Shown here piece after piece: positions 5,096 through 25,285 of a DNA stretch of 25,285 nucleotides. Each line of letters starts with the position of its first letter. The stretch's first letter is position 1. This stretch comes from a virus, in IMG/VR virus record IMGVR_UViG_3300022707_002843, positions 1 to 25,285 of that record. One strand, given 5' to 3'. The position numbers and the translations under genes are program-made. Below the pieces are notes generated by a model. That model was not told where the DNA came from, ran no database searches, and saw only the letters and a program-made list of their open reading frames with translations.

Positions 5096-8000
5096 CAAAG
5101 TTATTCGCCTTAATGTTCATAACAATTATCTTACTTGGAAGTGTCTCTGCCTTTGAGTTTGATAATGTAGGGAGATATGATGTTGCAGAAAAAACAATAA
5201 CAGTTCAAAATGCTTTCGGGTTCGGGAGTGAAATAGCAACGGTAAAATTAGAGACGGAATTGAAAAGAACAATTTATAATTTGGATGAACACATCGCAGA
5301 ATTTAATATATTTAATCATAAAGGATATGATAATTTCCTTAGTAAGATTGAAAGTTTCGAGGAAGTCGATGGGGGAGATGTTTTAAACTTAGATTATAGA
5401 TATGAATATTTAAACGAAGAAATAGGGACACATACTGAAATAGAAGTTGGAGATGCTTTTTACGATAATGGAACTAGATATGATGAATCATATCCTGTGG
5501 AAGTTAAAGGAACTTGGGTTGATTTTGACAAGAATGAAAGGTTACCTTCCGGAAAGATAAGAGTGAGGATGTATTTCAATAGCGATGTTAAAGTGGATCA
5601 AGAAATAGAAGTGATCCCGACCTTCTTTGGTGAAAGAATTGATGAATGGTTCTTAGTGAAACTTGCAGAAAACTTTGATGATGAAACCCCCGCAGCAGGA
5701 GGAAGTCAATTAAATATAGAATCTGCCTTATCCGTATCAGCACATCAAATCTTTGCCCCGCAAACATCACAAATCATTCACACCGTTGAACTGCCTTTGA
5801 TTAGAAGTGGGGGAACTCCGACAGGGGTTATTTATGGTTTTATATTTAATGCTACAGTTCTTCCCGGTTACCCCGGAAATCAAACCCCCGTTGCGACATT
5901 CAATAATATTACGGCCAGTTCCATAACCGCAACAACAGGCATAGAAGCAAGAGCAGATAGGACAAACTTTACCTTCAATGGAAACAATGCTAGTTTAAAA
6001 GCTGGTGTTAATTATTCCATAGCTTTGTTTGGGGAGAGTGCAGAACCAATTAGAATACAATGGATCTTTTCTGCCGGAAGTTCTTATTCCGGGGGAAGAA
6101 CTATTGTTCAGGTTGGTAAAGGGACAGGTTTTGTTACGACTGGGCCTCTAAGATCTCTCTTGTTTAGAACTTGGGAGCTAACAAATGATACTTTCCCAAT
6201 AGTAACCACCATCTTCCCCGCAAACAATTCAAACTTCACAACAAGCAGCATAGATCACAACGCAACGGTTAGCGACGATAGAAATGTTTCCAAGGTAGAA
6301 TTTTATGTGAATAGCGTTTTGAATCAAACGAATCAATCAGCGGGAGTTTTTAATAATTCTGCCTTCCTTTTCAATGTGGCCCTAGCTGATGGAACTCACA
6401 CCTTGCAAATAAACGCTACGGACAATAACACTCTAGGAGAACAAAGCACAGTAGGGAATTTAATTTATGTAAACATCGACACAATAAACCCAAGCGTTAC
6501 AAACTTCACAATAAACAATACTGTAAATAGTTCTGTTAAGATTATTGGGTTCCACGAATCTGATGTAAACACAATTGCTTTTAGGTGGAATGTTTCAGAT
6601 ATCCATTTAAATGCCTGTAGGATTCTATTTAATTTTTCAAATAGAACAGAAACTTGTTCGTTGAACACGACAGTCGCAATACAAAATATAACTGATCGGA
6701 CAGTTACCAATGCTACCTTTTATGTGAATGATACTTTTGGACTTTCTACTTCAAACTTCATGACTTGGGATTATTATGTTTGGGCCAACAACGATTCATT
6801 CAACAATGTTTCAGTTGAAGGATCCACAGAAAGATTCAGCATAGATATATTCACCGGTAATGGAACGAATCTTTCTTCCGCTTTGTTATGGTATAATAAT
6901 ACTGCTCTTGCGGGATTGATAACAGAATTGGGAGGGGGGAGATATAATGTAACAAGGTCGAACCCCGCAGAAACAGTAACCGCAACAAATAATATTGATG
7001 TGTTTTGGAGCTTCAATCTTAATAATGGAATTCAAATAAATAGCACTACAAAAACTCAACAAGTTACAAACATTGGAATAGATGATTGCTCGGTCAATAC
7101 CGATGTCTTGTATAATTTTACAATAGCAGATGAAGGAAATAAAACTCTTCTTCCGGGTTCGACTCAGAACACAACTGGAAGAGTTAATCTTCAGGTCTTC
7201 TCCTATGCAACAACAGATCTAATTCAAAGTTTTAATCAGTCATATTTCCAGACAAATACTTTCTCAGTGTGTCTTAACGATAATTTAGCTAGTGGTCAGA
7301 GGTATAGCCACGATGTGGAAATTCAATATGAGGCGTTGGGATATTCTTCAGAGTTTAGATATATTCAAAACGAAACTCTTGACAATTCAGACTTCCCAAC
7401 AAATATAACTCTCTTAGATTTAATACTTTCTGAGGCACAAATATTTAAAATTATATTCAAAGATTCTTCCTTCTTACCTTTGGAAGACGCTCTAATAAAT
7501 ATATCAAGAAAGTATATTGATGAAGGGGTTTTTAGAGTTACAGAAATTCCAAAAACAGATGGAAGGGGAGAGACCGTTGCAAGTCTTGTTGTTAATGATG
7601 TTGTTTATAAAATAGAGGTTATTAAATTTGGAGAGACGTTAGCAACTTTCAATGATGTCATAGCTGTCTGTCAGATTCCCGGAGTCGTCGAATGTGAAAT
7701 TAACTTGAATGCTTTTTCAGATAATATCGTAGTTCCAGATTTTGAACAGGGTGAAGACTTCAATTTCACTCTCGGATATAATAATAACACAAGACTCATA
7801 ACAAGTGTTTGGAACATCCCAAGTGGAACCCTAGCAACAATATCATTGAATGTTACCCAAGAGGATGCACTTGGAACTTCCATATGTGCAGACATTCTCA
7901 CATCAACCTCCGGAACTTTAACTTGTAATGTCACAAATAACTTTGGAAACGCTACGGTCATTGCTAAGCTATACAAGAATGCTAATCTTCAGGCCCAAGG

Positions 8001-9408: not shown

Positions 9409-9747
9409 ATGAAACAAATGAGAAAAGTTCTTGTCCATAAATCTACAAAGGGACAGTCAGGCGGATTGATTACAGGTTTGGTAATGGGTATCGCATCCCT
9501 AGTGATTGGAGTTATTATCGCATTGGTAATTACCCAAACATTGAATGATGCTTCACTTTTAACCGCCGGGACTGCAGAAGCAAACGCTGTTGGTAATCTT
9601 ACAGCTAACTTCTCCGATGGAATTGACAGAATCTCTGAACAAATCCCAACCGTATTATTGATCGCTTCAATAGTTCTAATTATAGGAGTATTGGCCGTTC
9701 TTGTGGGAGTCTGGCAGAGAATGAGAATGGGAGGAGGTTCATTGTAA
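9409..9747 (+). CDS. Putative major coat protein (two-hydrophobic-helix type)
   Basis: The protein has 112 residues. A basic N-terminus runs to K14-G15-Q16-S17. Helix 1 is at about 20-44 (GLVMGIASLVIGVIIALVI), followed by a polar linker with the sequon NLT and NFSDGIDRISEQ. Helix 2 is at about 81-101 (TVLLIASIVLIIGVLAVLVG), and the tail is short and basic (WQRMRMGGGSL). Two hydrophobic helices with a short polar link and a basic tip is the layout of spindle-shaped-virus coat proteins (SSV1 VP1/VP3 type). KGQS also matches the archaeal class III (prepilin) cleavage pattern, so the N-terminus may be processed. It has its own promoter and a strong ribosome-binding site, as expected for an abundant protein. 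A pilin-like identity is the main alternative. Confidence 0.65.
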   Translation: MKQMRKVLVHKSTKGQSGGLITGLVMGIASLVIGVIIALVITQTLNDASLLTAGTAEANAVGNLTANFSDGIDRISEQIPTVLLIASIVLIIGVLAVLVGVWQRMRMGGGSL

Positions 9748-9766: not shown

Positions 9767-10384
9767 ATGAAAAACATTAGAGTGTTGAAAAACAGAAAAG
9801 GACAGAGTGGTGGTTTAATTACTGGTTTAGTAATGGGTGTTGCTTCACTTGTGATAGCAGTGATCATTGCATTAGTAATTACTCAAACATTGAATGATTC
9901 AGGATTGTTAGGAGCTGAATCTAATGCTTCTTTATCTGTAACTAATGAAACAAATGCTTGGAGTTTTGGTAACGGAACTCTCTATCTGGTTAATGTAGAA
10001 AATTCTACTACGCAAACTTATAATGTTACAGACGTCTGGAGTACCATTGATGGGTTATATAATCTTCAGGCAAATGGAACTTTTAGGGATAGATTCACGA
10101 TAAGCACTGCGGGACTTTTAGATAACAGTTCTACATTAGGAAACTCTTCAACTTGGGACAACATAAGTATAAGTTATACGTATGTTTACACCTTCGAAGG
10201 TCTTCCGTCCGAAGCTGCTGCGGCAGGTAATTTAACTGCTAACTTCTCTGAAGGAATCAACAGAGTGTCTGAACAAATTTCAACAGTATTGCTAATCTCT
10301 GCAATAGTCTTGATAATTTCGATACTAGCTGTTCTTGTGGGAGTCTGGCAGAAAATGAGAATGACCGGTGGCGGATCTCTATAA
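9767..10384 (+). CDS. Coat-protein paralogue with inserted glycosylatable domain
   Basis: The protein has 205 residues. Residues 11-48 and about 152-205 closely copy the preceding protein (KGQSGGLITGLVMG at one end; GNLTANFSEGINRVSEQ, helix 2 and GVWQKMRM at the other). Between them, roughly residues 49-150, lies an insert absent from the first copy. It carries about ten sequons (NAS, NET, NGT, NST, NVT, NSS and others) and is predicted to be beta-rich. The insert sits in the linker between the two helices, which would be exposed. No clear ribosome-binding site precedes the start 19 nt after the first gene, so it may be translated less. I infer a minor, decorated coat protein. Confidence 0.65.
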   Translation: MKNIRVLKNRKGQSGGLITGLVMGVASLVIAVIIALVITQTLNDSGLLGAESNASLSVTNETNAWSFGNGTLYLVNVENSTTQTYNVTDVWSTIDGLYNLQANGTFRDRFTISTAGLLDNSSTLGNSSTWDNISISYTYVYTFEGLPSEAAAAGNLTANFSEGINRVSEQISTVLLISAIVLIISILAVLVGVWQKMRMTGGGSL

Positions 10385-12522: not shown

Positions 12523-13014
12523 TTATTTGTCCCTTTTGCGAATTTTCTTGTTGTCTAAAATAAAACAAGCTATATGTCTTCCAGTTCCTTTCCCTTGAGA
12601 TCCATCTTCTATTGCTAACCATTTTACATCTCCCAAATTTCTAACTTCTGCTCCATGCTCTAATAACATTAATATCCATTTATCTATTGGATAAACAAGA
12701 ACAACTTTCTTTCCTTTCTTATTTTCCTCAATGGCTTTTCTTACCCAAGCTGTTGCTCCCTTCTTCTTAGGTTTTTTATCGTTCTTTCCCTTATGCAAAA
12801 TTGCACCAAAAGGAGGATTAACATAATTTGATTTTCCCCATTCATTTTCCAATCCATCAAAATCATCTGGTTTTGGGTAAGGCGCCGGATCAAAGTCAAA
12901 TTTAAATTCATCATTTAATTCTTTCATTAATTCTGGGGGAGTTAGCCAATAATGTTTTCCATCAACACTATTTCCTTTATGGAATTTATTGTCTTCCGGT
13001 TTTAGTTTCTTCAT
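12523..13014 (-). CDS. Phage-type DNA N6-adenine methyltransferase (Dam-like)
   Basis: The protein has 163 residues from the ATG at 13014, which has a GGGGGA ribosome-binding site; a frame-open ATG at 13032 lies deeper in the recombinase gene. WLTPPELMKEL (23-33), FDPAP (41-45) and the catalytic NPPF (66-69, the DPPY-type motif) are the hallmarks of the phage N6-adenine methyltransferase family, followed by VVLVYPIDKW and a GKGTGRHIACFIL end. It would methylate adenine in short DNA sites using S-adenosylmethionine. No restriction nuclease is nearby, so it is an orphan enzyme, probably protecting the genome from host restriction or marking it for replication or packaging. It overlaps the recombinase gene by 29 nt. 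Confidence 0.85.
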   Translation of the reverse strand: MKKLKPEDNKFHKGNSVDGKHYWLTPPELMKELNDEFKFDFDPAPYPKPDDFDGLENEWGKSNYVNPPFGAILHKGKNDKKPKKKGATAWVRKAIEENKKGKKVVLVYPIDKWILMLLEHGAEVRNLGDVKWLAIEDGSQGKGTGRHIACFILDNKKIRKRDK

Positions 13015-13489
13015 CGTTTTCCCCCATCTCATATTTTCTTTTCTTCTTAGGTCTCCCCAACTTCTTTCCTTGCCTTCTCGCCCGATCCAATCCCGCCAAA
13101 GTTCTTTCCCTAATAATAGATCTCTCGAACTCCGCGAAAGCTCCCATGATATTCATCATCAACTTTCCAGTTGAAGTTCCAAGATCTATGTTCTCCATAT
13201 AGCTAATAATAATTACCCCTTTCTCATGGAGAGTTTCCATGTGAGTTACAAGCTCCCTCAAACTTCTGGCCCACCGATCTAATTTATAAAATAACAAACC
13301 ATCGAATTCTTTTTTCAACAACCTATTATATAAGGCCCATTGAACCGGCCGAGTTTTCCTAGTTGATTCTTTCTCCTCAAAGATTTCATACTCGTAGTTC
13401 ATCCTCTTACAATAATCAACCAGTGGATTGATTTGATTCTCTAGGACTTGATCTGTTCTGGAAACCCGAACATAAATAGCGACCTTCAT
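12986..13489 (-). CDS. Small serine recombinase (resolvase/invertase) lacking the helix-turn-helix domain
   Basis: The protein has 167 residues. The catalytic domain is intact: Y6-V-R-V-S10 (nucleophile Ser10, Arg8), a LFYKLDRWARS motif with the conserved active-site Arg residues, and the long helix with GAFAEFERSIIRERT. After GKKLGRPKKKRK the chain ends in an acidic/basic tail (YEMGENDEETKTGRQ). The C-terminal helix-turn-helix of about 40 residues found in Hin/resolvase proteins is missing, and no HTH appears before the next gene. The GRPKKK stretch may still contact the minor groove. It could resolve genome dimers or invert a segment. It overlaps the upstream membrane-protein gene as ATGA. 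Confidence 0.85.
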   Translation of the reverse strand: MKVAIYVRVSRTDQVLENQINPLVDYCKRMNYEYEIFEEKESTRKTRPVQWALYNRLLKKEFDGLLFYKLDRWARSLRELVTHMETLHEKGVIIISYMENIDLGTSTGKLMMNIMGAFAEFERSIIRERTLAGLDRARRQGKKLGRPKKKRKYEMGENDEETKTGRQ

Positions 13490-13703: not shown

Positions 13704-14594
13704 TTATTCTTGGGAGACACCCCCCAAATTGGGGTGAGATTTCTTGAGAATGATGTCCGAGAGGGTAGTTTGATGAACCCCAAGTGCGATAGACATATCT
13801 TCTTGGGTAACTTGCTTCTTTTCTTTGAGGTAAACGTAGATCTTTCTTATCAACTCGGCCCTAATCTCACTTGGGGACTTCGCCTTCTTGTCGTCAGCGT
13901 CCCATTTCTCCAAATCCAGTGCTTTTGCCTTGATATAATCCTTTCTATCGACGCCATAACCGTCGAAGAACTGACCTGTGAAGTCCGGGGGCGTCGCTTT
14001 GTAGTTATGGAACTTCTTACCGTTCAAAAAGAGCTTTCTCTTAGAGTCGAACCCGTAAAAACGGAAGTATCCCCGGGAAAAGTTGCTCCCAAAGTGAACA
14101 TCGATAGCAAAAATGCTTCTTCCGATTGCGTAGGACATATTTAATTGGAAAAAATTGGGGATTATTATTAAAATAAACAAGTTTAACTGACGACACTTAC
14201 GAAAAAACGCCCTCAAAGTCGTTCCCAACTCGCTCCAATAGTGTGCGTCCTCCCATTCGTCCAAAAGTATCATGGAATACTTCGGAATTTCGAAACTTCT
14301 TTCGATTAATTCCTTCGCTCTCCAAACAATGTTGCGAGTTCCGTAATTTAAATCGATTCCGTGCTTCTTTTTTATTATTTCTTCCCAAATTTCTCCGATT
14401 TGTGTTGCAAAAACACTCTTACCTGTCCCAACTTCGAGGGTGGATGAATAAATAACGCCGAGAAAGGTCATGTCCTTAACAATTGTGTCGGCCATGATCT
14501 CTAAATTAGAATAAAGATAATCATCGACGTATCTTCCGTCTGTTTTTTGATATTTTAAGCTACCTTTTGGATATTTTTCTTTTAAAACTTTCAT
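13704..14594 (-). CDS. Zot/HerA-like P-loop ATPase with C-terminal helix-turn-helix (packaging/morphogenesis candidate)
   Basis: The protein has 296 residues. The P-loop is GTGKS at 56-60 (LEVGTGKSVFATQIG), but the first Gly of the classical GxxxxGKS is replaced by Leu. Walker B is MILLDEWED at 108-115. LFILIIIPNFFQL (139-151) resembles the strand-plus-polar sensor of the FtsK/HerA/Zot group. The last 40 residues (VTQEDMSIALGVHQTTLSDI) form a predicted helix-turn-helix. Proteins of this kind drive DNA packaging or extrusion at membranes in filamentous and membrane-containing viruses. The HTH could give DNA specificity or autoregulation. The start overlaps a tiny zinc-finger gene by 35 nt. DNA segregation or plasmid transfer are alternatives. 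Confidence 0.65.
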   Translation of the reverse strand: MKVLKEKYPKGSLKYQKTDGRYVDDYLYSNLEIMADTIVKDMTFLGVIYSSTLEVGTGKSVFATQIGEIWEEIIKKKHGIDLNYGTRNIVWRAKELIERSFEIPKYSMILLDEWEDAHYWSELGTTLRAFFRKCRQLNLFILIIIPNFFQLNMSYAIGRSIFAIDVHFGSNFSRGYFRFYGFDSKRKLFLNGKKFHNYKATPPDFTGQFFDGYGVDRKDYIKAKALDLEKWDADDKKAKSPSEIRAELIRKIYVYLKEKKQVTQEDMSIALGVHQTTLSDIILKKSHPNLGGVSQE

Positions 14595-14709
14595 TTTTTT
14601 TCCTCTCTGGCTTTTTAATTACTTCTTTGCAATGGCTACAAACATAATAACCTCTTGATTTCTTTCCGTGGGTTAAAATTCTTTTATATTTACGATGGTT
14701 GCAAGTCAT
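14560..14709 (-). CDS. 49-residue zinc-finger protein
   Basis: A short frame: MTCNHRKYKRILTHGKKSRG, then YYVCSHCKEVIKK and a basic end. Ligands C3, H5, C24 and C27 (or H26) are placed for a single zinc knuckle. Its ATG overlaps the upstream stop as ATGA, and it runs 35 nt into the ATPase gene, so the three genes are translationally linked. The small size and basic character suggest nucleic-acid or protein binding. Confidence 0.65.
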   Translation of the reverse strand: MTCNHRKYKRILTHGKKSRGYYVCSHCKEVIKKPERKKNESFKRKISKR

Positions 14710-14891
14710 TTTTTCTTTTCCTCAATTAAATCCACATAATAAATTAATTTATCTGCTTTCCAATTGTGAAGTAAGGCATGGAACAATAAAATAATCTTAT
14801 AATCATATCCAGAATTCCAAAGAGCAAAAGAATATTCTAAAATTTCTCTCTCTGTTGCGTTGGAACTTATCGTGAAGTTTTTATTGGTCAT
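14706..14891 (-). CDS. Small helical protein, unknown function
   Basis: The protein has 61 residues and no membrane segment. It is largely helical with aromatic residues (EREILEYSFALWNSGYDYK, LLFHALLHNWKADKLIYYVD) and a KKK end. Both junctions are ATGA overlaps. A GGAGGGAGA ribosome-binding site precedes it. No family recognised. Confidence 0.6.
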   Translation of the reverse strand: MTNKNFTISSNATEREILEYSFALWNSGYDYKIILLFHALLHNWKADKLIYYVDLIEEKKK

Positions 14892-15512: not shown

Positions 15513-16121
15513 TTACAATGTTTTTTGTTGATCTTTGAAGGCGCAATCGAGAATATGTAGTCCGACTTCTGGATCTACCATGTTTCTCAACACTTTTCTC
15601 TTCTCATCAATATCTGTTTTGGAAATATCAAAGCCATAAATAGGTTTGCTTCCAACAATTTCATTATGAATTCTGTTGTTTTGAATTTCTTTATCTAAGA
15701 TTATAAAATTACTCCAAAAGAAATGTCTGTGGGCCTTGAATGGTTTTATTAATGGCTTATAATATCCTACAACATTTTCAACAACCCATTTAGTCTCTAG
15801 TTTAACAAAATGCTTCAGTAAAATTATCTCTTCATACAATTTCATCTCCGGATAAACTGCTTTGTTCCTTCCCCTGTGAACTCCTGCTCTCCTAATGTCT
15901 GAATGTGTCGGACATGGAGGAGAACTCCAAATGAAATCAAACTCTTGGAAATGTTTCAGTAAATATTGATGAGCATCAGTAATTATAACCTTATCATTCG
16001 GAAAAAAGTCTTGATATATCTTAGCGATCTCTGAGTTATTCTCCACAGCGATTATCTCATGCTTGTCGCCCCAAAGTTTCCTGTTCCCTCCGATTCCTGC
16101 ATATAAATTTAGTATTTTCAT
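15513..16121 (-). CDS. Short DNA C5-cytosine methyltransferase (Dcm-like)
   Basis: The protein has 202 residues from the ATG at 16121. Motif I is LNLYAGIGG (4-12), motif II includes E27, motif III D49, and motif IV SSPPCPTHSD (66-75) has the catalytic Cys70. Motif VI is ENV (115-117), followed by an HRHFFW segment (131-136). The end (LRNMVDPEVGLHILDCAF) stands where motif X normally is. Usual enzymes exceed 300 residues, so the target-recognition domain is much reduced. It would methylate cytosine in a short site. With no nuclease nearby it is probably anti-restriction. A start at 16139 is open, but the TATA box 20 nt before 16121 favours the shorter, leaderless form. Confidence 0.85.
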   Translation of the reverse strand: MKILNLYAGIGGNRKLWGDKHEIIAVENNSEIAKIYQDFFPNDKVIITDAHQYLLKHFQEFDFIWSSPPCPTHSDIRRAGVHRGRNKAVYPEMKLYEEIILLKHFVKLETKWVVENVVGYYKPLIKPFKAHRHFFWSNFIILDKEIQNNRIHNEIVGSKPIYGFDISKTDIDEKRKVLRNMVDPEVGLHILDCAFKDQQKTL

Positions 16122-17669: not shown

Positions 17670-17758
17670 TCCCAAATTAATGAAGAAGAGTTTATAAACT
17701 TTACCCCTCAAGACTATAGTATAGAAAGGTTTATAAACCCCTTTAGTCTCTAGTAGTT
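17670..17758. promoter_or_regulatory. Mirror-symmetric divergent leaderless promoter pair
   Basis: Two identical palindromic TATA elements, GTTTATAAAC, lie at 17690-17699 and 17729-17738. The left one is 21 nt from the minus-strand ATG at 17669 and the right one 21 nt from the plus-strand ATG at 17759, so the whole region is symmetric about 17714. An ACTATAGT palindrome (17713-17720) sits at the middle. Both mRNAs would begin at or next to their start codons. A single regulator binding the centre could switch both directions. Confidence 0.75.
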
Positions 17759-19397: not shown

Positions 19398-19954
19398 CCT
19401 CAAAATGTAAAACTTGTGGACATACTTTCCACATTGGATTGTGTGATGCTTTTATGACTGGGAAACATTGTAAATGCGAGAAGTTCGAGGGGGAAGATGT
19501 TCCTCATGGTTCTCCATCTTATACTAATTGTGAATGTAAGGAGTGCAAACAACAAAAAGGTTGTGGTTGTCCTCATAACTGGGAATGCCCCTCATGTTCA
19601 ACTCAAAGTCCGCTATCACGCAAGATTAAGGACACGCCAGAGGAAAAAGAAACTTGTCAGTTGCTTTATAGTAAATCCTCTGGCAATCAAAGTCCTCAGG
19701 TCAATTCTAACAAATTTGATAGATCTGTTTCGAACCCTGAGGACACTAAAACTTTAAGTGATAAAATCCTCCCTACTTATGATGCTGAAGGGGACCAAGG
19801 AAGTATTCAAGTTGAAGATGTCAAAACCTTCATTTCGGATGAAACTCAAATAATTAATGATTATATTAAATGTAAGATAGGTCTTGATGAAATGTGGGAA
19901 AGGAGAATCAAACTCGCAGGATTAAAATTGTTAGAAGGAGGTAAAGAAAAATGA
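19394..19954 (+). CDS. Cys-rich zinc-binding protein
   Basis: The protein has 186 residues. The first 75 hold about 15 cysteines: KCKTCGHTFH, CKCEKF, NCECKECKQQKGCGCPHNW and ECPSCS. They suit two or three zinc knuckles. The middle is polar and probably disordered. The last 50 residues are helical (DETQIINDYIKCKIGLDEMW). ATGA overlaps link it to the anchored protein upstream and the SSB-like gene downstream, so it may work with single-stranded DNA, but this is inferred. Confidence 0.65.
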   Translation: MTSKCKTCGHTFHIGLCDAFMTGKHCKCEKFEGEDVPHGSPSYTNCECKECKQQKGCGCPHNWECPSCSTQSPLSRKIKDTPEEKETCQLLYSKSSGNQSPQVNSNKFDRSVSNPEDTKTLSDKILPTYDAEGDQGSIQVEDVKTFISDETQIINDYIKCKIGLDEMWERRIKLAGLKLLEGGKEK

Positions 19955-20241
19955 CATACGAAGAAATAAATCCAACTGATTGGACTTACAAAGAAGATGG
20001 AGATTTCATAGAAGGAGTTCTTGTTCAAGTTCAAAATAACGTAGGGCCTAATAGTTCCATGTTGTATAGTATTGAAACATCTGAAGGCATAAAAAATGTT
20101 TGGGGAACAACTCTTCTTGATTCAAGAATGAGTCTTACCAAAGTTAGCGATAAAGTTAAGATAACTTATAAAGGACTCGCGGAAGCAACTGGCGGAAAGA
20201 ATCCGGCTAAGATCTTTAAGGTTGAAGTAGACAAAGATTAA
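19951..20241 (+). CDS. OB-fold single-stranded-DNA-binding-like protein
   Basis: The protein has 96 residues. DGDFIEGVLVQVQNNVGPNS, then LYSIETSEGIKNVWGTTLLD and KVKITYKGLAEATGGKNPAK, give the strand order and the W-G-T-x-x-L-D signature I associate with small phage OB-fold proteins often annotated as SSB-like. It would bind single-stranded DNA during replication or repair. It is the last gene before the three-hairpin region and is joined upstream by an ATGA overlap. A GAAGGAGGT ribosome-binding site is present. Confidence 0.7.
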   Translation: MTYEEINPTDWTYKEDGDFIEGVLVQVQNNVGPNSSMLYSIETSEGIKNVWGTTLLDSRMSLTKVSDKVKITYKGLAEATGGKNPAKIFKVEVDKD

Positions 20242-20248
20242 CATCATA

Positions 20249-20339
20249 CTTAACTTCTATCCATGAAGTTAAGGGTCTCAGTGAATTCAAGACAATTCAT
20301 TTAGACCTCCTTCCTCCCTAGATCTCACGCCTAGGGAGG
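20249..20339 (+). ncRNA. Three consecutive stem-loops; candidate structured RNA that hides a ribosome-binding site
   Basis: Stem 1 pairs 20249-20257 with 20265-20273 (9 bp, CTTAACTTC/GAAGTTAAG). Stem 2 pairs GGTCT 20274-20278 with AGACC 20303-20307 and TGAATT 20282-20287 with AATTCA 20294-20299, with a symmetric 3x3 internal loop. Stem 3 pairs 20313-20321 with 20331-20339 (9 bp, CCTCCCTAG/CTAGGGAGG). The stems follow each other with 0 and 5 nt between them. The 3-prime arm of stem 3 contains GGGAGG, the ribosome-binding site of the gene at 20351. ACCTCC at 20305-20310 could pair with the same GGAGGT, a competing fold. It could be a cis-regulator, a separate small RNA or a single-strand replication signal. 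Confidence 0.6.
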
Positions 20340-20350
20340 TTATAATCAAA

Positions 20351-20458
20351 ATGGTATTCAAAAGTTATTGGGAAAGAAGAAGGGAAGAAAGAGAAAAAGC
20401 AATTGAGGAAAAGAAAAAAAAACAAGATGAAAATAAAAGAAAAGCTAGAGAAATTTGA
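20351..20458 (+). CDS. 35-residue charged peptide
   Basis: A short frame starting MVFKSYWERRREEREKAIEE and continuing as a Lys/Glu helix. GGGAGG 11 nt upstream is its ribosome-binding site and lies in the last arm of the hairpin region. It overlaps the next frame by 32 nt. The strong ribosome-binding site supports translation. The purine-rich sequence alone would give such a peptide by chance, so I am only moderately sure. Confidence 0.45.
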   Translation: MVFKSYWERRREEREKAIEEKKKKQDENKRKAREI

Positions 20459-20594
20459 GAAGTATATTAAGAGAACGAAGTTTCATTATTATCCTTCAAA
20501 GAAAAACATGATCTTTAGATTCCATCAGATCTTTCAAGAAGAAATGAAGGATACTGAAACAGGAAAGAAGTGGAGGGAGGGTTTAGAAAAATGA
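20427..20594 (+). CDS. Small basic helical protein
   Basis: The protein has 55 residues from the ATG at 20427; a TTG at 20403 is also open. It is basic (KIKEKLEKFEKYIKRTKFHY) with a second half FRFHQIFQEEMKDTETGKKW. No clear ribosome-binding site is seen. The stop overlaps the next start as ATGA, which supports it as a gene. Function unknown. Confidence 0.5.
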   Translation: MKIKEKLEKFEKYIKRTKFHYYPSKKNMIFRFHQIFQEEMKDTETGKKWREGLEK

Positions 20595-20830
20595 AAAGAC
20601 TAGAACAATTACCACTTGAAAATTCCTCACAGGAACTAGCGGCTTTCACACATGGGATTTTATTTGGATTGCATTCACTTGCCGTCTATTATAATCTTCG
20701 AAGGGGGAGAGTTAAAGATGCTTTAGTTCATGGGGCCGTTGCGACTTATGATATGATTGCTCTCTACAGACACGCCAAATATCTAAAGGAAGATGAGTTG
20801 GTTGATAGATTAAGGGATGCGGGATTGTAA
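20591..20830 (+). CDS. Small helical protein, family seen in archaeal/phage hypotheticals
   Basis: The protein has 79 residues from the ATG at 20591, preceded by GGAGGGAGGG and overlapping the upstream stop as ATGA. The pattern ILFGLHSLAVYYNLRRGRVK, then ALVHGAVATYDMIALYRHAKYL, gives two amphipathic or weakly hydrophobic helices with conserved-looking His and YNLRRG residues. I recall similar unnamed proteins in archaeal and phage genomes (memory, unverified). It ends the accessory operon. Confidence 0.6.
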   Translation: MKRLEQLPLENSSQELAAFTHGILFGLHSLAVYYNLRRGRVKDALVHGAVATYDMIALYRHAKYLKEDELVDRLRDAGL

Positions 20831-20842
20831 AAATTCATGAAA

Positions 20843-20871
20843 CATTTATAAGTGTTGTTACACTGTAACAA
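20843..20871 (+). promoter_or_regulatory. Promoter with TTGTTACA-C-TGTAACAA operator for the virion operon
   Basis: A TATA box, ATTTATAAG (about 20844-20851), is followed at once by a perfect palindrome with 8-bp arms and a central C (20855-20862 / 20864-20871). By archaeal spacing transcription would start near 20873, so the palindrome fills the space between TATA and start, a classic repressor position. The leader to the ATG at 20898 carries an AGGGGT ribosome-binding site. The half-site TGTAACA recurs as a tandem at the coat promoter. Confidence 0.6.
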
Positions 20872-20897
20872 TTAATCTTTAGGGGTTTTTAAAAAAG

Positions 20898-23444
20898 ATG
20901 GTTCATAAAAGGATTGGAGGATTTATTTCAAGGATTAGAGGGGGATCAGCTCCGCCTCCACCACCACCGCCCCCTGTTGCTAGTTCTGTTCCTCAACAAA
21001 GTTTTGGAACACCCGAAGACATTCCACAATCTATTCCTGATCAACCTCAGTTTACTCCAATACCAACTCCTCGTAGAGGAGGCGGAGGGGGAGGAGGAAG
21101 CCCCCCGCAACAAAGTTTTGGAACACCCGAAGACATTCCACAATCTATTCCTGATCAACCTCAATTTACTCCAATACCTTCTGGTGGAGGAGGATTATCT
21201 CCTCAACAAGTTGCCTCGGCAAGAAGACAACGAACGGGTGGAGGACAGCGAGGGTTTTCCGGAACTGTTGAACAATCATTTGATGGAACGGCGGAGAGAA
21301 CAAGGTTCTTTGTTGAGGGAAGACAGGTTGCTGAATCAAGAGCCGGTGAAGATTTCTTTAGGCCCAGTCTTTCCGGAAGAGAAACCGCAACAATAGAAAT
21401 CGAGAGAAATGGAGTAACAAGACAAATTCAAATAACTCCCGAAGAATTAAGAGACAGAGAATTCGAAATGAGAAAAGAATCTGCACAAAATTTATTATTT
21501 GGTGGAGGAATGTCAAGTGCGTTCTCTGGCTCAGGTGGGGAAGGTGGTGAACAACTCGGGGGAGTTTTAGTTAGGGGAAGTGAGATTGGAAGAACAGGAG
21601 AGGAAGCAAATCAAATCTTCGAGGTTCAACCAAGAGAACCAACGGTTACAGAAAGGTTAGCAACGGGTGTTCGTAGAACAGGATTTGGAAGAACAAGAGC
21701 TGGAATTAATCTTGCGGAGAATCTTGATCAAACACAATTAAGTATTGAGAGAGATGCACAATTAGCAGGATTTGAAAGAGACGCTTCAATATCTGACACT
21801 ATGAAAACAAGTGGATTGCCCGGTGTTGTTCGAGGAACCTTCGGAAGATTTGGCGCGGGAACCGGAGAGATTGCAAGAAGAGGGGGAGTCCCTCAACCAA
21901 TTGCTGAAAAGGCAGGAGTTATCGCGGGGGACATCGCATTGTTCGGTGGAGTTCTTGGGCCAGTCTCAGCGACGACAGCACAAATAGAAAGAGAAATATT
22001 ATCGGCTTCAAAGGTTAGCATCGTTGGAGTTACAAGAGAAGTGGGTGCTGCGAAAGCAAGAACTTCCGCAGTGTTTAAAGTTGAAAGAGCAGGAAGATTA
22101 AGAAGAGGTTTTGTTAGCGCTGAATCTATTAAGATTGCAATTCCTAGAATAGAAAGGTTTCAAATTGCTAAAGGAGTAAGAGGAGCTACATCAAAAGATG
22201 TTCAAGCAATTGTTTCTGCTGCGCGGGGAAGAGAGTTTGTAAGCGGTTTAAGATTCCCAACAGCAAGACAAGTTGTTCGACCAAGAGCAGAATTTGTAAG
22301 TGCTGAGATTGCGAAGGTTACCCGAAGATCAGTTCCCCAAACACAAAGGTTTCAAATTGCCCGGGGAGTAAGAGGGGCCACTAGAAAAGAGGTTGATCTT
22401 TTCTTCACAAGATCTATTGGAATTACTAGAAGGAGAGGAGAAAGAATTCCTTTTAGAGCGGTTGGCGTTTCAAGAAGGCGAAGAGATGTAATTGGACAGT
22501 TGGGTGCTGCGGAAACTGGTAGAGGATTTGCTTTTTCAAGAGGATTATTTAGGGTAGTTGATCGACCGGACACAAGAGCATTTAGGATTGGTGGAGCAAC
22601 TCCTCGAGGGGCAAGAATAAATTTAAATCAAATAACCCAACCAAGCCAGAGTGCTTTAACTTCTGCTAATGTTCAAGCAATAAAAAATGTTGTTGAGCAA
22701 TCTGTTAAGATTCAACCTCAACGACAATTAAATGTTCTAGGTTCTCCAACAGGATTACTAACTCCTTCCCCAAGACAAACTTCAAGAGCTGTTCTTAGGC
22801 CCCCTAGTATTCAGCAAGTTATTGCTCGGCAAAGAATCCTCCCGGCAATTTCTCAAAGATCTTCAGTGAGACAATTATCAGGACAAAGAACAAGTCAAGT
22901 TGTTAGAACTCGTCAAGCACAAAGACAAGTTTCACAACAAAAGGCAATTCAAAAATCAATTCAGCAAGTTGTTCAAACACAAATTCCCGCACAAAGACAA
23001 AGGTTTATAGCAAGGGCAAGATCAATTCCTATTAATAGATTTACTCAACGACCCCCTCCATTTATTCCTATTCCCAGAATCACTTCGCCCCCAAGAAGGC
23101 CTTTGATTCCTAGGGTGAAACAATTTAGGACTGTAACCCCTAGACAAATCTTCCCAAAGTTCCCAGTGTTTGTTAGGAGAAGTGGAAGGTTTAGATTAGC
23201 TGGATTCGGAAGAACACCAAGACAAGCCGTAAGTTTGGGAAGACAAGTTACCGGAAGAACTCTCGCCGCAACTTTTAAAGTTCCTTCATTCAAGGGAATA
23301 AATGTTCCGGGATTCAGAACCAAGAAAGAAAAGGGCGGTGTTGTTTTCATCGAGCCACGAAGGAGAAGATTATCCACAGGATCAGAGTTAAAAGAAATCC
23401 AAGCATTTCAACGAAGAGCATTGAAAGGAGGAATATTAAATTAA
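20898..23444 (+). CDS. Large Pro/Gly/Arg/Gln-rich basic protein (virion structural candidate)
   Basis: The protein has 848 residues, is very basic and mostly low in complexity. It has a PPPPPPPP run near residue 17-24, a 38-residue-period tandem repeat (QQSFGTPEDIPQSIPDQPQF, twice) joined by a Gly run, and Gly/Arg-rich middle segments. A second internal duplication has RFQIAKGVRGATSKDV and RFQIARGVRGATRKEV about 180 nt apart. A long Arg/Gln/Pro region follows, and a more ordered end (FRLAGFGRTPRQAVSLGRQV, then IEPRRRRLSTGSELKEIQAF). No enzyme motif or membrane anchor is clear, though residues about 345-365 are moderately hydrophobic. As first gene of the structural operon it may coat or condense DNA or act as a scaffold. 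Tape-measure function is an alternative. Confidence 0.7.
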   Translation: MVHKRIGGFISRIRGGSAPPPPPPPPVASSVPQQSFGTPEDIPQSIPDQPQFTPIPTPRRGGGGGGGSPPQQSFGTPEDIPQSIPDQPQFTPIPSGGGGLSPQQVASARRQRTGGGQRGFSGTVEQSFDGTAERTRFFVEGRQVAESRAGEDFFRPSLSGRETATIEIERNGVTRQIQITPEELRDREFEMRKESAQNLLFGGGMSSAFSGSGGEGGEQLGGVLVRGSEIGRTGEEANQIFEVQPREPTVTERLATGVRRTGFGRTRAGINLAENLDQTQLSIERDAQLAGFERDASISDTMKTSGLPGVVRGTFGRFGAGTGEIARRGGVPQPIAEKAGVIAGDIALFGGVLGPVSATTAQIEREILSASKVSIVGVTREVGAAKARTSAVFKVERAGRLRRGFVSAESIKIAIPRIERFQIAKGVRGATSKDVQAIVSAARGREFVSGLRFPTARQVVRPRAEFVSAEIAKVTRRSVPQTQRFQIARGVRGATRKEVDLFFTRSIGITRRRGERIPFRAVGVSRRRRDVIGQLGAAETGRGFAFSRGLFRVVDRPDTRAFRIGGATPRGARINLNQITQPSQSALTSANVQAIKNVVEQSVKIQPQRQLNVLGSPTGLLTPSPRQTSRAVLRPPSIQQVIARQRILPAISQRSSVRQLSGQRTSQVVRTRQAQRQVSQQKAIQKSIQQVVQTQIPAQRQRFIARARSIPINRFTQRPPPFIPIPRITSPPRRPLIPRVKQFRTVTPRQIFPKFPVFVRRSGRFRLAGFGRTPRQAVSLGRQVTGRTLAATFKVPSFKGINVPGFRTKKEKGGVVFIEPRRRRLSTGSELKEIQAFQRRALKGGILN
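20994..21178 (+). repeat. Two 71-bp direct repeats (114-bp period)
   Basis: 20994-21064 and 21108-21178 are the same 71 bp except for one silent change (CAG/CAA at 21050 and 21164). They encode the duplicated QQSFGTPEDIPQSIPDQPQF segment. The near absence of silent changes means the duplication is recent or kept alike by recombination. The spacer encodes a Gly run. Confidence 0.9.
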
Positions 23445-23888: not shown

Positions 23889-24698
23889 ATGGAAGAGAGA
23901 GACATGGAAAATATGATGGGACAAGCGACTGTTGCTAAGACAGTTAATGAAGCCAACCAAGGTGGTAATGCAAATGCTGCTGCGCAATATTATATGGAAG
24001 AAAGGGAAAAAGGAATCGTAGATGTTCAGTTGGAAGTTGATACTATCAAATCAGATATTTATCATTTGTTGAGTCAAGATAAATTAGAAGTTTTAGATGG
24101 GGGAAAAGTTGATTGGGTTCCAATTAAAAACCAACAACAAAGAACTCTCTCTGTTTGGGGCGTCGATAGAATTATGCAAGTGATTCATTTCTATATTAAT
24201 AAAAGTAATCTTCTATCCAACTTTAGTGAAGAACAAATAAATAGATTAATGTTAAGGTTTGTTAAGGAACTTAATGATCTTGTTTTATTGAAGTATCAAG
24301 TATTATTCCGGGAGACAACTTTTGATGAAGCAAAAATAATAATTCTTGATAAGATTGAATCCAAAAAGAAAATGAAATTGTTTGCTCTTGAGATTATTGA
24401 GAAGACTCCTAGTAAAGATGAAGAGGGGGAAATTGAAAGGAAGCTCTTGGTCGAATTAGAAAAAACTCTTGAAGCAGAAATGATTAAAGTGAGAGAGGAA
24501 CAAAGAAAAGAAAAGATAAGAGACTACGGATTACTTATGGCCCAATTAGAAGTTATAGTTTTTGGCGCATTGAATCGTGCCTACAAGGGAGAAGAAAGAG
24601 GATCGATAAGAAGGCACACAAGTATTACCGAATTGATTGGCCCAAGACCTCAACAAGCTCCAAGGCAACAGGGAGGGGCGTTGTCATGGGGAAAGTAA
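23889..24698 (+). CDS. Helical protein conserved-looking in archaeal viruses, unknown function
   Basis: The protein has 269 residues and no membrane segment. A polar Asn/Ala-rich head is followed by helical parts: VDWVPIKNQQQRTLSVWGVD, FYINKSNLLSNFSEEQINRL, FVKELNDLVLLKYQ, then a charged coiled coil (KLLVELEKTLEAEMIKVREE) and a conserved-looking end (LNRAYKGEERGSIRRHTSIT). I recall proteins with W-G-hxxI, LSNF-EE-IN and LN-A--G-ER-S-R motifs beside structural genes of archaeal viruses, but cannot name the family. It overlaps the fibre gene start by 13 nt. A virion assembly or portal-like adaptor role is possible. Confidence 0.65.
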   Translation: MEERDMENMMGQATVAKTVNEANQGGNANAAAQYYMEEREKGIVDVQLEVDTIKSDIYHLLSQDKLEVLDGGKVDWVPIKNQQQRTLSVWGVDRIMQVIHFYINKSNLLSNFSEEQINRLMLRFVKELNDLVLLKYQVLFRETTFDEAKIIILDKIESKKKMKLFALEIIEKTPSKDEEGEIERKLLVELEKTLEAEMIKVREEQRKEKIRDYGLLMAQLEVIVFGALNRAYKGEERGSIRRHTSITELIGPRPQQAPRQQGGALSWGK

Positions 24699-25285
24699 CA
24701 TTAATCTCTGCATTTATTTTAGTCTTTGCTTTGGTATTTGTTTCGGCATCTTTTGGCTTTGATAAAACCCAACAGACAACTAGACTTGTTACCATAAGCG
24801 CGGGAGCCGGAGATATAACCGCGGTGTTTCCTTACTCGAATAGTTTCCTTACAATAAATAATACTGATGCTGCGGATGTGTATATAATTTTTGATTCTTC
24901 TTTATTGAATGATACCATCAATGCCTTCTTGGGCAACGGAACTTTCGGTGCAGGTTCGGGGGATATTACAGCTGTAAACCCGTTCGATCTTTCTATTATT
25001 TTAAACAACACGGCTACAGGAGATGTTTATCCCCAAGTGAATATGACTTTTGTCAATGGAACAATAAATGCTTTCTTGGGTAATGGAACCTTCGGAGCTG
25101 GTTCCGGAGATATAACCGCGGTCAATCCATTTGACATTTCTATAATAATAAATAATTCAGCTACCGGAGATGTCTACGTTCAAACTAATGAGTCAAGAAT
25201 AAATGACACAATCAATGCCTTCTTAGGTAACGGAACTTTTGGAGCGGCGGGAGGGACTGTTGTCTGGGCTGATGTGATAAATGGA
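24686..25285 (+). CDS. Repeat-rich tail-fibre/adhesin-like protein, N-terminal part (continues at 1)
   Basis: The ATG at 24686 opens a signal peptide (LISAFILVFALVFVSASFG) followed by repeats starting GDITAV at 24809, 24959 and 25106, each ending INAFLGNGTFG. The frame runs off the window end at VWADVING, and the last 144 bases equal the first 144, so with the circular join the gene continues to 1518 and encodes 657 residues. The early repeats differ most from the consensus; copies 3 onward are close. Its start overlaps the upstream gene by 13 nt in another frame. Secreted and sequon-rich, it is a receptor-binding fibre or adhesin candidate. Confidence 0.8.
   Translation, partial: MGKVTLISAFILVFALVFVSASFGFDKTQQTTRLVTISAGAGDITAVFPYSNSFLTINNTDAADVYIIFDSSLLNDTINAFLGNGTFGAGSGDITAVNPFDLSIILNNTATGDVYPQVNMTFVNGTINAFLGNGTFGAGSGDITAVNPFDISIIINNSATGDVYVQTNESRINDTINAFLGNGTFGAAGGTVVWADVING
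25142..25285. repeat. Terminal direct repeat (right copy)
   Basis: This stretch is identical to positions 1-144. See the left copy for why it indicates a circular genome of about 25,141 bp and not an internal repeat of the fibre gene. Confidence 0.9.

Follow-up and report, generated by a model that had tools for sequence, protein, structure and literature searches.

In the window, by which we mean the whole stretch of 25,285 nucleotides of viral DNA that was analysed, three tandem stem-loops fill a non-coding gap on the plus strand between a small gene and two short, overlapping ORFs (Table 1). An initial annotation of this DNA had described the three stems, a GGAGG buried in the last of them and an ACCTCC upstream of it, and all of these are found in the sequence as described. 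By mechanical gene calling the gap (20242-20350) is also the largest non-coding one in this part of the plus-strand operon, the next being a gap of 67 nt at 20831-20897.

Table 1. Features of the hairpin block and its flanking genes, with similar pyrimidine stretches (window coordinates unless a contig is named)
Feature	Position	Strand	Remarks
Upstream small gene, 96 aa, beta-rich	19951..20241	+	OB-fold/ssDNA-binding-like by appearance only
5' box TCATACTT	20244..20251	+	TYATACTC-like
Stem-loop 1	20249..20273	+	9 bp, 7-nt loop, -8.9 kcal/mol
Stem-loop 2	20274..20307	+	13 pairs, one C.U mismatch, one G.U, 6-nt loop, -12.2 kcal/mol
ACCTCC, anti-SD-like, within pyrimidine stretch	20305..20310	+	read from sequence
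Stem-loop 3	20313..20339	+	9 bp, 9-nt loop, -15.0 kcal/mol; GGAGG 20335-20339 in 3' arm
3' box TTATAATC, then AAA, then ATG at 20351	20340..20347	+	recurrent hairpin-YATAATC(AAA)-ATG tag
First downstream ORF, 35 aa, basic, candidate gene	20351..20458	+	sequence; no family above cut-off
Second downstream ORF, 55 aa, overlaps first	20427..20594	+	read from sequence
CACCTC(C/T)TTTT-like stretches	L030 276, 1110; L045 15711, 17368; L050 5805, 9297; L044 6947; window 20305	sense	

The ends of the window are identical (1-144 equals 25142-25285, 144 bp) and the genome is therefore circular, with 25,141 bp. It encodes small hydrophobic virion-type proteins in tandem, an ATPase-like protein that is kept in the relatives, a resolvase and methyltransferases. 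The resolvase is a serine recombinase (12986-13489; Resolvase, Pfam E 3.9e-36) whose gene overlaps a methyltransferase-like ORF at 12523-13032. Two related small capsid-like proteins encoded in tandem (9409-9747 and 9767-10384) have two hydrophobic segments and the start GQSGGLITGLV, and are kept in most relatives; they presumably resemble the capsid proteins of spindle-shaped viruses. A diverged array of 99-nt repeats runs across the circular junction (24848-25141 and 1-1278) inside a large ORF.

Relatives of this virus were found via alignments of conserved virion proteins and comprise the contigs L002 (G001), G002, G003, G004, G005, G006 and G007. Single-protein searches with the products of 19951-20241 and 23889-24698 as queries gave no match, and none of the phage records matches the window. 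G003 is also found within a genome bin named Candidatus Pacearchaeota, and the same bin (G008) contains a second relative, G008:C37. Its contigs C45 and C37 are the two virus relatives and C8 carries a further copy of the gene upstream of the gap, truncated at the contig end. Together with the TATA-like boxes that can be read by eye 5' of genes, the Pacearchaeota bin points to an archaeal host, probably from the DPANN group. To our knowledge hardly anything has been described of how viruses of DPANN archaea regulate their genes. Besides the truncated copy, a homolog of the upstream gene with about 60% identity occupies the same position in G003 (L030:3835-4149). The predicted model of its product has the order E-E-E-H-E-E at low confidence (pLDDT 47), and no match was obtained in Pfam, PHROG, PDB or fold searches.

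The structure of the gap is confirmed to be more than chance. Its fold reaches -39.4 kcal/mol against -18.1 +/- 3.1 in 500 dinucleotide shuffles, none of which was as low (z = -6.98), and the gap is the strongest tandem-hairpin cluster of this genome on the plus strand. A wider stretch of 201 nt around it yields a z of only -1.9, since coding sequence is included. The antisense strand also folds well (z = -5.4); since the stems are nearly perfect Watson-Crick helices almost without G.U pairs, the contrast between sense and antisense is weak, and the wobbles are too few for G.U versus A.C asymmetry to be decisive. A terminator-like T-run is absent after each of the three stems (19900-21000 scanned), and no TATA-like box was seen by eye in the gap, the sigma-70 scan being unsuited to archaea. 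Used as a DNA pattern, stem 3 gave 19 matches in viral contigs that share no proteins with the window except weak similarities limited to a single large ORF and a short frame; these matches were treated as chance.

Strong folds recur in comparable gaps of the relatives. The z values are -7.0 for the window (G000), -4.3 for G002, -4.9 for G003, -6.0 for G005, -3.7 for G006, -5.9 for G007 and -6.9 for G008. Strict synteny, i.e. a homologous upstream gene, is demonstrable for the window and G003 only; in G003 the gap measures 166 nt and the hairpins are quite different (CCCTCAGAA...TTCTGAGGG and others). In G002, G005, G006 and G007 the gaps were chosen as similar by eye and follow small genes of similar size; outside the pair of the window and G003 the alignments of the upstream genes (A5, A6) are weak. 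The G008 contig was fetched later, via a virion protein. A single strong hairpin follows a similar small gene in G071 (z -3.3), and in G004 the gap after the similar small gene is unstructured (z +0.2), with hairpins preceding another ORF. Across these genomes the majority of the remaining gaps have z values above -3 and near zero, and random windows of 120 nt average -0.3. Further structured gaps occur at G002 7508-7645 (z about -7 to -7.7) and twice in G007 (near -4), and hairpin-rich gaps are thus a common feature of these viruses, found at more than one site. At L028 7508-7645 (G002) and L030 481-583 very short, similar-looking ORFs are followed by a hairpin directly 5' of the next ATG.

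It is the structure that recurs in these gaps, and the stems of different viruses have no sequence in common, so that the comparison is one of structure and not of individual base pairs. In most gaps the sense strand folds at least about as well as the antisense strand (-7.0 versus -5.4 in the window, -6.0 versus -2.8 in G005, -3.7 versus -0.1 in G006); in G007 and in a second G006 gap the antisense fold is equal or better. Upstream of the hairpins of G004 lies a tRNA-like stretch (L032 ~14545-14650, GCGAGGG...GGTTCGAATCC...CCCTCGC) for which ARAGORN made no call.

A second recurrent trait is the arrangement of hairpin, 0-3 nt, YATAATC(AAA) and ATG. After stem 3 the window reads TTATAATCAAA and then ATG, and the string of G008 is identical. 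The tag is TTATAATC-ATG in G002, TCATAATC-ATG in G005 and TTATAATCAAA-ATG at 14886 in G004, where the tagged hairpin has a modest z of -2.0, and the near variants CATATTCAAAATAAA and TATATTCAAA occur in G007 and at a second site of G002; before the ATG of G003 the tag is absent. In all related DNA (about 250 kb, both strands) the expression [CT]ATAATC(A0-3)ATG occurs ten times. Five copies open ORFs of 35 aa or more, and each of these is preceded by a hairpin whose end lies 0-3 nt away; the other five open ORFs of 4-24 aa, and upstream structure was found for none of them. The expression was formed after G000, G002, G005 and G008 had been seen, which leaves G004 as the one new case among the five with a hairpin. 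A TYATACTC-like or TCATACTY box opens the hairpin block in G002, G003, G004, G005, G006 and L096 (a contig described below). Within the elements T[CT]ATACTC, noticed post hoc, is found seven times (six sense) against 0.23 expected, and T[CT]ATANT[CT] 19 times (16 sense) against 3.9 expected, a count partly inflated by G004 and L096, which were found via the tag. For the seven elements picked independently of any motif, the level of exact 7-mer sharing was reached by 152 of 200 shuffles and is not significant on its own, and the k-mer result for nine elements includes G004 and L096, both picked via the tag; the case for the tag therefore rests on its start-codon position and not on k-mer counts. 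We regard both boxes as good leads, the start-codon tag being the stronger. As a general signal of the host the tag was rejected: TTATAATCAAAATG gave 37 matches in 371 genomes of the host phylum versus roughly 18 in the reversed control, and nearly none of 30 inspected loci lies behind a hairpin.

A scan of viral contigs with TTATAATCAAAATGG returned at least 120 stretches, and the 81 sites examined had a median upstream z of -0.4. Among the matches listed, L096 shows a perfect hairpin directly 5' of the tag (z -7.5), placed after a gene of 156 aa and before a Cys-rich ORF. This contig was selected by the tag, and its hairpin and neighbourhood lay outside the selection. It has portal and terminase genes, the best terminase match being the archaeal Halogranum tailed virus 1, and has no protein in common with the window family at 1e-4. 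It is a tailed virus unrelated to the window family.

Given the recurrence in relatives and in one virus outside the family, a shared RNA signal at gene boundaries, of an undescribed kind, is a better reading than a riboswitch. The explanation we prefer, tentatively and at somewhat short of an even chance, is an intercistronic RNA element that marks an mRNA processing or stability boundary. Here a sense-strand hairpin block would separate a small, possibly replication-associated gene from the first gene of a variable set of accessory genes, with the closing hairpin abutting an unpaired tag, UUAUAAUC(AAA)AUG. The boundary would most likely be constitutive: the hairpins would keep exonuclease from attacking the upstream cistron at its 3' end, and the AU-rich tag, as a site of cleavage or entry, would leave the downstream cistron with a very short leader, the outcome being two genes on one transcript with different expression levels. 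We infer that RNA is transcribed through the gap and cleaved at the tag, that the hairpins protect it and that the two genes differ in expression; the direct basis is the position of the block, its fold strength, the recurrence of hairpin, tag and ATG, and the absence of a T-run in the window gap. Numbers are small throughout and several choices were made after looking at the data. If the preferred explanation holds, a hairpin-plus-tag signal with unrelated stems offers a cheap and searchable marker for viruses of DPANN archaea, and a model in which to study how polycistronic viral mRNA that has no Shine-Dalgarno sequence is processed or translated in archaeal hosts with minimal genomes. A broader idea, possible but on the doubtful side, is that the UYAUANUY-flanked hairpin block represents a new structured RNA class common to unrelated archaeal viruses, serving as a portable gene-boundary and start signal, or as a small RNA excised by cleavage at the boxes.

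In bacterial operons intercistronic hairpins without a U-tract protect the upstream mRNA (PMC5927463), and in the window stable hairpins without a U-run likewise lie between co-oriented genes. The protective stem-loops of malE-malF, puf and menBCE (PMC5927463) are also stable, intercistronic, free of a uridine tract and sometimes consecutive. In contrast with them, the present elements belong to archaeal viruses, their last hairpin abuts the start codon via a recurrent tag, and protection from decay is presumed. The papBA-type sites processed by RNase, as cited in PMC5927463, resemble our locus in having structured intercistronic RNA beside a single-stranded stretch, whereas here it is an AU-rich tag 3' of the hairpin at which cleavage would occur.

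The initial annotation had read the block as a riboregulator or riboswitch in which mutually exclusive pairings control one ribosome-binding site. Part of this stands: the structure is non-chance, has no match in Rfam (release 15) at or above the gathering threshold, and is one instance of an element that recurs, which makes a cis-acting RNA signal plausible. As in Shine-Dalgarno-sequestering leaders and riboswitches, the GGAGG of the next gene lies in a stem in the window copy, its first four bases paired with a probability above 0.99 and the last with 0.70. The ACCTCC could in principle compete for it, and co-transcriptional or protein-driven refolding may occur. However, when the six ACCTCC/GGAGGT pairs were forced, the best resulting fold was 13.6 kcal/mol worse than the MFE (pair probability ~2e-6), so the alternative pairing exists on paper and switching at equilibrium is not supported. 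Unlike those leaders, the block lacks a competing fold of comparable energy and a conserved, aptamer-like core. Burial of GGAGG is confined to the window among the elements inspected: in G002, G004, G005, G007, G008 and L096 the last hairpin ends near the start codon and GGAGG is missing from its 3' arm, and in G003 none precedes the next ATG. Sequestration is not supported as a general function, and a translational switch that hides the GGAGG of the 35-aa ORF until a signal opens it is improbable.

A transcription attenuator or partial terminator, by which the hairpin cluster would reduce accessory-gene expression, is unlikely. Bacterial clusters of two or more close hairpins, no more than about 80 nt from a stop codon, have been proposed to terminate transcription (PMC8355165), and other hairpins in these viruses precede T-rich runs (G003 563-586, G004 972-995 and near 15810). 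Against this, none of the three stems is followed by a T-run, archaeal termination uses U-rich tracts, with hairpins no strict requirement (PMC7515710), and the block, unlike the bacterial clusters, lies inside an apparent operon with the next start codon 11 nt past the last hairpin and no obvious TATA-like promoter between. We give a small chance to a protein-bound RNA operator, in which a viral protein, perhaps the upstream gene product, binds the hairpins or the UYAUANUY boxes and autoregulates the operon. Boxes of the TYATANTY consensus stand at both ends of the block, and the upstream product looks like a small nucleic-acid-binding protein, but its OB-fold and binding are putative; moreover, the hairpins have no common sequence and the upstream proteins of different viruses show no demonstrable homology beyond the window and G003. 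Just as doubtful is a DNA element, i.e. an origin, a nicking or recombination site or an insertion point for accessory genes, acting as a cruciform or as single-stranded hairpins. The nearly perfect stems with their well-folding antisense strand would suit it, as would the replication-type genes found nearby in certain relatives, such as that of a D5-type primase-helicase in G002, and variable downstream genes, as at an insertion point. Yet, read in sense, the last hairpin fits directly onto a start codon, the six T[CT]ATAATC copies found in the elements are without exception sense, and the gap lies away from the cumulative GC-skew minimum near 18 kb, a weak test because skew follows gene direction.

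Several minor observations concern the surroundings of such hairpins and the intergenic gaps of these genomes. By inspection, CACCTC(C/T)TTTT-like pyrimidine stretches (Table 1) adjoin hairpins and resemble the 3' end of 16S rRNA, and one of them reads GGATCACCTCTTTA; the pyrimidine stretch with the ACCTCC of the window also resembles CACCTCTTTT stretches beside hairpins in G003, G006, G007 and G008. Inverted copies of GTTTATAAAC lie between divergent gene sets at 17690-17738 of the window and are likely two opposed TATA boxes. The palindromes TTGTTACACTGTAACAA, GTGTAACAATGTTACAC and GTGTTACAATGTAACAC occur in intergenic gaps (window 20855-20871, L031 1283-1299 and L044 3381-3397, respectively) and possibly represent a common operator; that of the window is found directly 3' of a TATA-like box, ahead of an ORF of 848 aa.
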